This document shows positions 831-1,940 of a DNA stretch of 64,000 nucleotides, one piece after another. How positions within the stretch are numbered: the stretch's first letter is position 1; every line of letters starts with the position of its first letter. The notes beneath the pieces are model-generated. The model was not told the origin of the DNA, searched no databases, and saw only the letters and a program-made list of their open reading frames with translations. The stretch is from the NCBI GenBank assembly GCA_027490195.1, contig JAIXYN010000077.1, forward strand, positions 1 through 64,000. Reading direction: 5' to 3'. Both the position numbers and the translations under genes were made by a program. Origin of the DNA: Verrucomicrobiaceae bacterium. GTDB lineage: Bacteria; Verrucomicrobiota; Verrucomicrobiia; Verrucomicrobiales; Verrucomicrobiaceae.

Positions 831-858
831 ATGGCGGCCTGGAGTTTTGAACACACCC

Positions 859-872
859 GGAGGTATCCTATA
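859..872 (+). promoter_or_regulatory. strong Shine-Dalgarno and AUA start of infC
   Basis: GGAGG lies at 859-863, six bases before an ATA codon at 870-872 that is in frame with IF3. The only upstream in-frame ATG (831) has just a weak AGG 10 nt before it, and translation from it would run through this ribosome-binding site. Non-AUG initiators at infC are known in other bacteria (AUU in E. coli), where IF3 discriminates against its own start codon and so regulates itself. That AUA is the start here is inference. Confidence 0.6.
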
Positions 873-1892
873 AGCAATCCATTCCAGCAGTTGAGCGGCG
901 GCAATTTTGCGCCACGTCCCCAGCAAAACCAAGGCACAGGCGGCCCACCGAGGCCTGCGGGTCCCGCCAATTCAGCGCCCGGACCAGCCGCAGGACCGCG
1001 CCCAGCGGGACCTGCCGGACCTGCGCAGGGAGCCCCAAGGCCAGCAGGACCTTCAGGACCGGCCCGCCCGGCGGGAGGTTACCAAGGATCCAGTGGTGCG
1101 TTTCGTCCCGGTGGTGGTGGCAACCGTCCCGGTGGACGGGACCGCCCGAATGGTCGTTTTGTGGATCAAACCCGCATCAATGAGCGCATCCGTGCGCCGA
1201 AGGTGCGTGTGGTCGAAGAAGATGGCCAGCATCAGCTTGGCGTCCTCCCGACTGCGCAGGCCATTCGCATCGCCAAAGAGCGTGGACTGGACTTGGTGGA
1301 AGTGGCTCCGAACGCGGACCCGCCAGTGTGCAAGATTGTCAATTACGGCAAGTACAAGTACATCCAGGAGAAGCACAAGAAGGAGGCCCACAAGCATCAG
1401 AAGGGCGGCAAGGTGAAGGAAATGAAATTCCGCATCGGCATCGACCCGCATGATTACTTGATCAAGATCACGCATGCGGAAGACTTCCTAGCGGAAGGCC
1501 ACAAGGTGCGCATCCAGTTGCAGTTCCGTGGCCGTCAGATGGCGCATCAGGAGCTGGGTCACCTGCTGGCCAAAAAGATCAAGGCCGACCTGCTGACCAT
1601 GGGGCACGTGGATCAGGATCCGCGTATGGCGGGCCGTAACATCAACATGCAGCTCAGTCCGCTGCCGGAACGTCAGCGCCAGCGCAAGTTCAAGACGCAC
1701 CTCAAAGGCGTCACGGAACATAAGGACATCGTCCACCACGAAGAGGGGCATGATCCGCGCGAGGACAAGCATGATGAGCACGATGACCACCATGATGATC
1801 ATCATGACGAGGCCAACCACGCGGAGCCGGCTCCTGCGGCTGAGGCCCCGCCAGCAAAGGCCGAAGCGCCGCCGCCTCCTGCGGCTGAATAA
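870..1892 (+). CDS. infC: translation initiation factor IF-3 with long low-complexity extensions
   Basis: IF3 binds the 30S subunit, prevents premature 50S joining and proofreads the start codon. With the AUA start at 870 the protein has 340 residues, against about 180 usually. Counting from the alternative ATG at 831, residues 24-108 are a Pro/Gly/Ala-rich arm with repeated RPAGP/GPAGPA units; residues ~112-288 are the IF3 core, starting VDQTRINERIRAPKVRVV and containing KERGLDLVEVAP and QFRGRQMAHQELG; residues 289-353 are a His/Asp/Glu tail followed by Ala/Pro repeats. The core is complete, so the gene should be functional. It is followed by its own terminator rather than by rpmI-rplT. Family is certain; the start is open. 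Confidence 0.95.
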   Translation: MSNPFQQLSGGNFAPRPQQNQGTGGPPRPAGPANSAPGPAAGPRPAGPAGPAQGAPRPAGPSGPARPAGGYQGSSGAFRPGGGGNRPGGRDRPNGRFVDQTRINERIRAPKVRVVEEDGQHQLGVLPTAQAIRIAKERGLDLVEVAPNADPPVCKIVNYGKYKYIQEKHKKEAHKHQKGGKVKEMKFRIGIDPHDYLIKITHAEDFLAEGHKVRIQLQFRGRQMAHQELGHLLAKKIKADLLTMGHVDQDPRMAGRNINMQLSPLPERQRQRKFKTHLKGVTEHKDIVHHEEGHDPREDKHDEHDDHHDDHHDEANHAEPAPAAEAPPAKAEAPPPPAAE

Positions 1893-1910
1893 CAACTCCA
1901 AAGTACCACG

Positions 1911-1940
1911 AAGGGCAGGATTCACTTCCTGCCCTTTTTA
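1911..1940 (+). terminator. Rho-independent terminator of infC
   Basis: AAGGGCAGGA (1911-1920) and TCCTGCCCTT (1927-1936) form a perfect 10-bp stem with a 6-nt loop, followed by further Ts. It lies 18 nt after the infC stop and is the clearest intrinsic terminator in the window. Confidence 0.85.

Follow-up and report, generated by a model that had tools for sequence, protein, structure and literature searches.

Where does translation of infC, the gene of initiation factor IF3, begin in this genome, and could the start codon itself serve to control IF3? These questions were examined in the window, a stretch of 64,000 nucleotides of a Verrucomicrobiaceae bacterium, which is part of contig C39 in a draft genome assembled into 101 contigs (6,981,573 bases in all). 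An earlier note on this DNA had proposed that the gene probably starts at AUA, with GGAGG (859-863) lying six bases before ATA 870 and inside the frame opened by an upstream ATG at 831. The letters of the window bear out this arrangement: GGAGG is followed by a 6-nt spacer and by ATA (870-872), and ATG 831, 13 codons 5' of ATA in the infC frame, is the only in-frame ATG, GTG or TTG found from the upstream stop to ATA.

The infC gene of the window

The product of this frame was identified as IF3 by its match to TIGR00168 (194.9 bits) and by IF3_N and IF3_C domains that both scored above their curated cut-offs (Table 1). The frame is closed by TAA at 1890-1892, and the C-terminal tail of the protein (1662-1889) is rich in His, Asp and Glu, then in Pro and Ala. 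The closest titled record was that of a Prosthecobacter sp. MAG, with 99% identity over the IF3 core; the other near IF3 records were mostly titled Prosthecobacter, Verrucomicrobiaceae or Verrucomicrobia, and two were titled Akkermansia muciniphila.

Positions 1-2100 were also scanned for expression signals. The terminator consensus was found at 5 sites, versus a mean of 2.3 in shuffled sequences, and the promoter scan returned none on the plus strand and a single site on the minus strand. When the same region was searched with Rfam for a known leader, a sub-threshold match to mir-598 was obtained on the minus strand (26.1 bits, for a gathering score of 69), which was taken as chance.

Table 1. 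Features of the infC region, in positions of the window.
Feature	Position	Strand	Basis or remark
Shine-Dalgarno sequence GGAGG (GGAGGT including base 864)	859-863	+	6 nt 5' of the start codon; 61 of 62 family loci; anti-Shine-Dalgarno in relatives
Very probable infC start codon ATA (AUA)	870-872	+	family comparison
infC, translation initiation factor IF3, 340 aa counted from AUA, TAA stop included	870-1892	+	
Upstream in-frame ATG, judged non-start	831-833	+	831-type ATG present in 5 of 62 family loci, one of which (L006) has a TAA after it
IF3 N-terminal extension, Pro/Gly/Ala/Arg-rich, about 100 aa	873-1175	+	precedes IF3_N; length differs among relatives
IF3 N-terminal domain (PF05198)	1176-1388	+	domain match
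IF3 C-terminal domain (PF00707)	1410-1661	+	domain match
Intrinsic-terminator-like hairpin 3' of infC	1910-1937	+	consensus scan only

Position of the start codon in the family

Among 68 genomes of the family that were searched, 63 contained IF3 and 5 gave no IF3 match. Of the 63 loci fetched, 62 could be read at the start, L031 being cut by the contig end; L018 and L031, which both run into a contig end, were excluded from the counts of family frames without ATG, GTG or TTG that are given out of 61. At the position of ATA 870, every one of the 62 loci carried an AUH codon, i.e. AU followed by any base but G (33 ATA, 26 ATT and 3 ATC), and ATG, GTG or TTG never occurred there. GGAGG was located 6 nt upstream of this codon in 58 loci and 7 nt upstream in 3, and was absent in one (L059). 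As the 16S search in the window's own genome bin found none, the anti-Shine-Dalgarno sequence was read from relatives, where CACCTCC was present in 10 of 10 16S loci from 7 genomes.

What is conserved in the family is the class of the start codon and not AUA itself. The earlier note had looked to conservation of ATA and GGAGG beside variable codons at 831-869: GGAGG and an AUH codon are indeed kept, and the upstream codons vary and are interrupted by stops, whereas ATA is not fixed, ATT and ATC being able to take its place.

Two other start sites had to be weighed at this point. Translation from ATG 831 would make 870-872 an internal Ile codon, and the reading frame runs on uninterrupted from 831 in the window; the same holds for L011, L016 and L046, which also have an ATG at this offset. 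However, ATG was found in just 5 of the 62 family loci at this place, which holds 30 different triplets (the comparison was made at a fixed offset of -13 codons, with no alignment, and the positions need not be homologous in distant members). In L006, an 831-type ATG is followed by an in-frame TAA (TAT changed to TAA) two codons before its ATA, so that this upstream ATG is unable to serve as a start. A stop two codons 5' of the AUH codon was present in frame in 12 of the 62 loci, and 48 of the 62 contain no in-frame ATG, GTG or TTG 5' of the AUH codon. Moreover, any Shine-Dalgarno sequence before 831 is at best weak (AGGT, by eye), and the use of Ile codons at the 870 site differs from that in the gene body. 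A start at ATG 831 was rejected on the family offsets and on the TAA of L006, and we give it very little credence.

Translation might also begin further downstream, for example at a TTG at codon +7, which is found in the window and in several relatives, or at a GTG inside the Pro/Gly-rich extension. This is very unlikely: from the upstream stop to the IF3 core, no in-frame ATG, GTG or TTG was present in 18 of 61 family loci, and GGAGG precedes the AUH codon in all family loci but one. In 13 of those 18 loci, the start is the sole AUH codon of the whole stop-to-core stretch. The family sequences thus argue strongly for AUA 870, and not ATG 831, as the very probable start of infC; the AUA start put forward in the earlier note is supported by the 62 AUH codons of the 62 loci, with GGAGG before 61 of them.

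Codon use and changes along the IF3 tree

The start AUH codon does not behave as an ordinary Ile codon, because Ile codon use at the start differs from that of the gene bodies. In the bodies of the 62 family infC genes, ATC was counted 677 times, ATT 158 times and ATA 7 times; ATA represents 0.8% of these Ile codons versus 53% of the codons at the start position. The remainder of the window infC frame contains 12 ATC, 2 ATT and no ATA. The binomial probability of observing so many ATA at the start is about 7e-52, and that of so few ATC about 3e-38, both values being uncorrected for relatedness, which is taken into account by the count of changes on a tree. In a quick, single-model tree built from 147 IF3 proteins of the order, the start codon was found to change at least 28 times, and at least 12 times within the family alone. 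Only 1 change between AUH and any other codon was counted on the same tree, which is unrooted.

Start codons in the order, class and phylum

Of the 104 order genomes outside the family that had an IF3 match, 85 were examined, five of which came from the class and phylum search; that search supplied 84 class and phylum genomes, and 63 of these were examined. In total, 211 of 213 loci were used after two duplicates had been dropped; in G218, which has two IF3 matches, the stronger one was read. Starts outside the family were assigned automatically, by motif or by the best Shine-Dalgarno sequence, a procedure that by design favours the result; that of L109 was set to ATA by reading the sequence (automatic call, ATC). 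With these assignments, AUH was obtained in 128 of the 147 assigned genomes of the order (54 ATA, 36 ATT and 38 ATC) and GTG in the other 19. The 63 wider genomes gave 40 AUH (23 ATT, 10 ATC and 7 ATA), 12 ATG, 2 TTG and 1 CTG, with 8 left without assignment. A figure free of this bias is given by the frames that contain no ATG, GTG or TTG at all before the IF3 core, which amount to 66 of 209.

The 19 GTG starts belong to a single genus of the window's order (g12; L064-L077, L165, L166, L168, L169 and L173), where they were found in 19 of the 19 genomes examined out of 23; they were assigned by motif and mostly have no recognisable Shine-Dalgarno sequence. An AUH codon with no visible Shine-Dalgarno sequence was met in 7 of 9 loci of family f4 and in some loci of f2, f3 and f6. 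In f2, f3 and f4, many frames also have an ATG immediately 5' of the IF3 core, with no Shine-Dalgarno sequence there in the loci listed, so that individual genes of these families may start at ATG.

Other arrangements were observed at class level. In 12 relatives of families f7 and f9 (L170, L174, L176-L178, L180, L181, L183, L185 and L187-L189), infC apparently starts at an ATG before which no Shine-Dalgarno sequence was found. In L147 (G184), neither ATG, GTG or TTG nor ATA, ATT or ATC occurs before the IF3 core, and the best candidate is a CTG placed after AGGAG.

A candidate ACG start in one order of Bacteroidota

A further lead came from seven Bacteroidota IF3 loci that contain no in-frame ATG, GTG or TTG before the IF3 core. 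In the order to which G262 belongs, IF3 was found in 14 of 16 genomes, and each of the 14 infC genes has an in-frame ACG after GGAGG, with a spacer of 4 nt in 8 and of 5 nt in 6 (L304-L310, L328, L329, L340/L372 and L368-L371). These records carry diverse titles: Bacteroidetes or Bacteroidota, and Ignavibacteria for some. In 12 of the 14 loci, there is no ATG, GTG or TTG from the upstream stop to the core; the other two are L329, where an ATG stands five codons 5' of ACG and a GTG lies beyond it, and L371, where the leader contains an ATG seven codons 3' of ACG. In L368, an ATT two codons after ACG offers an alternative start.

The codon two positions after ACG encodes Thr in 10 of 14 genes (5 ACG, 2 ACT, 2 ACC and 1 ACA), and the first codon is ACG in 14 of 14. 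As 38 of the 76 Thr codons of the gene bodies in this order are ACG, the chance of 14 out of 14 would be about 6e-5 under independence of the genes, a condition that does not hold here. By eye, the frame that ends just before infC is thrS-like in the three loci read (L304, L308 and L369). Over the class, 46 of 64 loci have no ATG, GTG or TTG before the core, the ACG loci included, and the other genomes mostly carry AUH, ATG or TTG at the start place (by eye). The leader of L272, a locus titled Ectothiorhodospiraceae, is identical by eye to that of L368, and a scan of viral contigs for ACG-type IF3 returned 1 locus.

The initiator tRNA of these genomes was examined as well. In G262, where 30 of 45 tRNA matches were taken as loci, the two tRNA-Met(CAT) genes among these have elongator-type anticodon stems, and for this reason the initiator was sought by a stem-loop pattern allowing either a CAT or a CGT anticodon. 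Thirteen matches were obtained in 11 of the 14 genomes, all with CAT, the pattern giving no match in G258, G322 and G323; a reversed control pattern matched once (G263). For all 13 pattern-matched loci, the ARAGORN prediction was tRNA-Met(CAT).

Initiation at ACG occurs in E. coli constructs. A literature search for a natural bacterial ACG start gave nothing among the matches listed, judged by titles and abstract openings. If true, the ACG start would be a natural bacterial start codon lacking the central U, and an exception. On balance, we lean towards the view that what selection requires at the start of infC is a codon rejected by IF3, whichever codon this may be; repeated exchanges of AUA, AUU and AUC with no AUG among them would satisfy this in Verrucomicrobiales, and ACG in one order of Ignavibacteria-like Bacteroidota.

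Proposed feedback of IF3 on its own translation

Our preferred reading is that infC starts at AUA and that this codon, being of a kind rejected by IF3, provides a homeostatic feedback. The strong GGAGGU Shine-Dalgarno sequence would bring the 30S subunit to AUA 870, where the initiator tRNA (anticodon CAU) would presumably read AUA despite a third-position mismatch. Start complexes of this mismatched kind are destabilised by IF3, and the IF3 of the window would be expected to reject AUA in this way. Since IF3 would destabilise the AUA start complexes, it would repress its own translation when plentiful, and translation would rise when IF3 is scarce; selection would then act against AUG at the infC start. 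The start position, the conserved Shine-Dalgarno sequence and the long-term retention of AUH, all provided by comparative genomics, are consistent with this scheme. We consider the combined reading probable, and place it no higher because it includes the inferred feedback and because the rival readings must fit beside it.

The IF3 proteins themselves were compared with one gene per start type, at residues Y75, R99, K110, R112, R116, R131, R147 and R168, which we take to be involved in start-codon discrimination by E. coli IF3. The window IF3 keeps Y75, R99, K110, R131 and R168, and has T, D and K in place of R112, R116 and R147, respectively. At R131, the ATT and ATC examples, both from other AUH genes, have K; at R99, S is found in the ATG example and H in the ACG one, and the GTG example has N in place of R168. 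With one gene per start type, a clear pattern linking these residues to the start codon was absent.

It may instead be supposed that AUA is the start and merely keeps IF3 expression low, with no feedback, as a weak start cuts the yield by itself. In S. aureus, the AUU and AUA starts of cvfC1, ccpN and citZ gave about 10% of an AUG reporter, ccpN reaching up to 30% in rich medium (PMC13009471). Yet a merely weak start could be obtained with GUG or UUG and a poor Shine-Dalgarno sequence, whereas the family keeps a strong Shine-Dalgarno sequence together with a codon of the class that is described as subject to discrimination by IF3. This point is not decisive, and it leaves low expression as an unlikely explanation when taken alone. 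Against the feedback reading stand the changed residues R112, R116 and R147 and the K at R131 in the two other AUH examples, the existence of other reasons for keeping a weak start, the relatives that manage without AUH (GTG, ATG, TTG), and the AUH codons that lack GGAGG (L059) or a visible Shine-Dalgarno sequence (7 of 9 loci of f4 and some of f2, f3 and f6).

Relation to known systems

Control by IF3 through an unusual start codon is already known, and ribosome profiling has shown an AUA start of infC in S. aureus. In a 2017 mBio paper, E. coli infC is described with an ATT start and IF3 feedback (PMC5472188), and AUH-type start codons are presented as subject to IF3 discrimination in a review (PMC4611024). 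The record of E. coli K-12 infC reads ATT with GGAGG upstream, so that both genes combine a non-AUG codon of the IF3-rejected kind with GGAGG; the codon is AUU in E. coli and AUA in the window. The surroundings differ, E. coli infC lying between thrS and rpmI-rplT, whereas that of the window is followed by the terminator-like hairpin and, by eye, by an rpe-like ORF on the other strand.

A further parallel comes from S. aureus, in which retapamulin-enriched ribosomes were found at the AUA start of infC and the authors suggest autoregulation (PMC13009471, 2026). There, as in the window, AUA follows an extended Shine-Dalgarno sequence; however, S. aureus belongs to another phylum and its start was mapped experimentally, that of the window by comparison only. 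AUA at infC, which the earlier note had called rare, appears less so, being reported for S. aureus in PMC13009471 and constituting the likely start in three Clostridia loci (L275, L279 and L291), which contain no in-frame ATG, GTG or TTG before the core. In Streptomyces, the start codons are ATC for infC and GTC for sigR, and the effect of IF3 on sigR has been studied in vivo; these genes share with the window an IF3-sensitive non-canonical start, with different codons (PMC5472188). A plastid infC is given a GTG start in PMC3667073, and the reference list of PMC9845219 includes a 2020 arXiv survey on genes that favour non-AUG starts. Searches for infC, non-AUG starts and initiation factors in Verrucomicrobia or Prosthecobacter gave nothing for the phylum, judged by titles and abstract openings; among the matches listed for AUA or ATA infC starts, only PMC13009471 was on point, and none dealt with Verrucomicrobia.

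Significance

Gene callers limited to ATG, GTG and TTG would assign a wrong 5' end to an essential gene in the majority of the genomes studied here; in the window, the error would amount to 13 residues. Through its repeated AUH swaps and the few lineages outside this class (GTG, ATG, TTG and apparently ACG), infC may be considered as a natural record of what IF3 rejects. The existence of AUH and non-AUH lineages would allow the feedback idea to be tested with their IF3 proteins and with reporters. For the organism of the window, a Prosthecobacter-like bacterium, the analysis suggests that the cell is probably able to register how much IF3 it has and to restrain its production.
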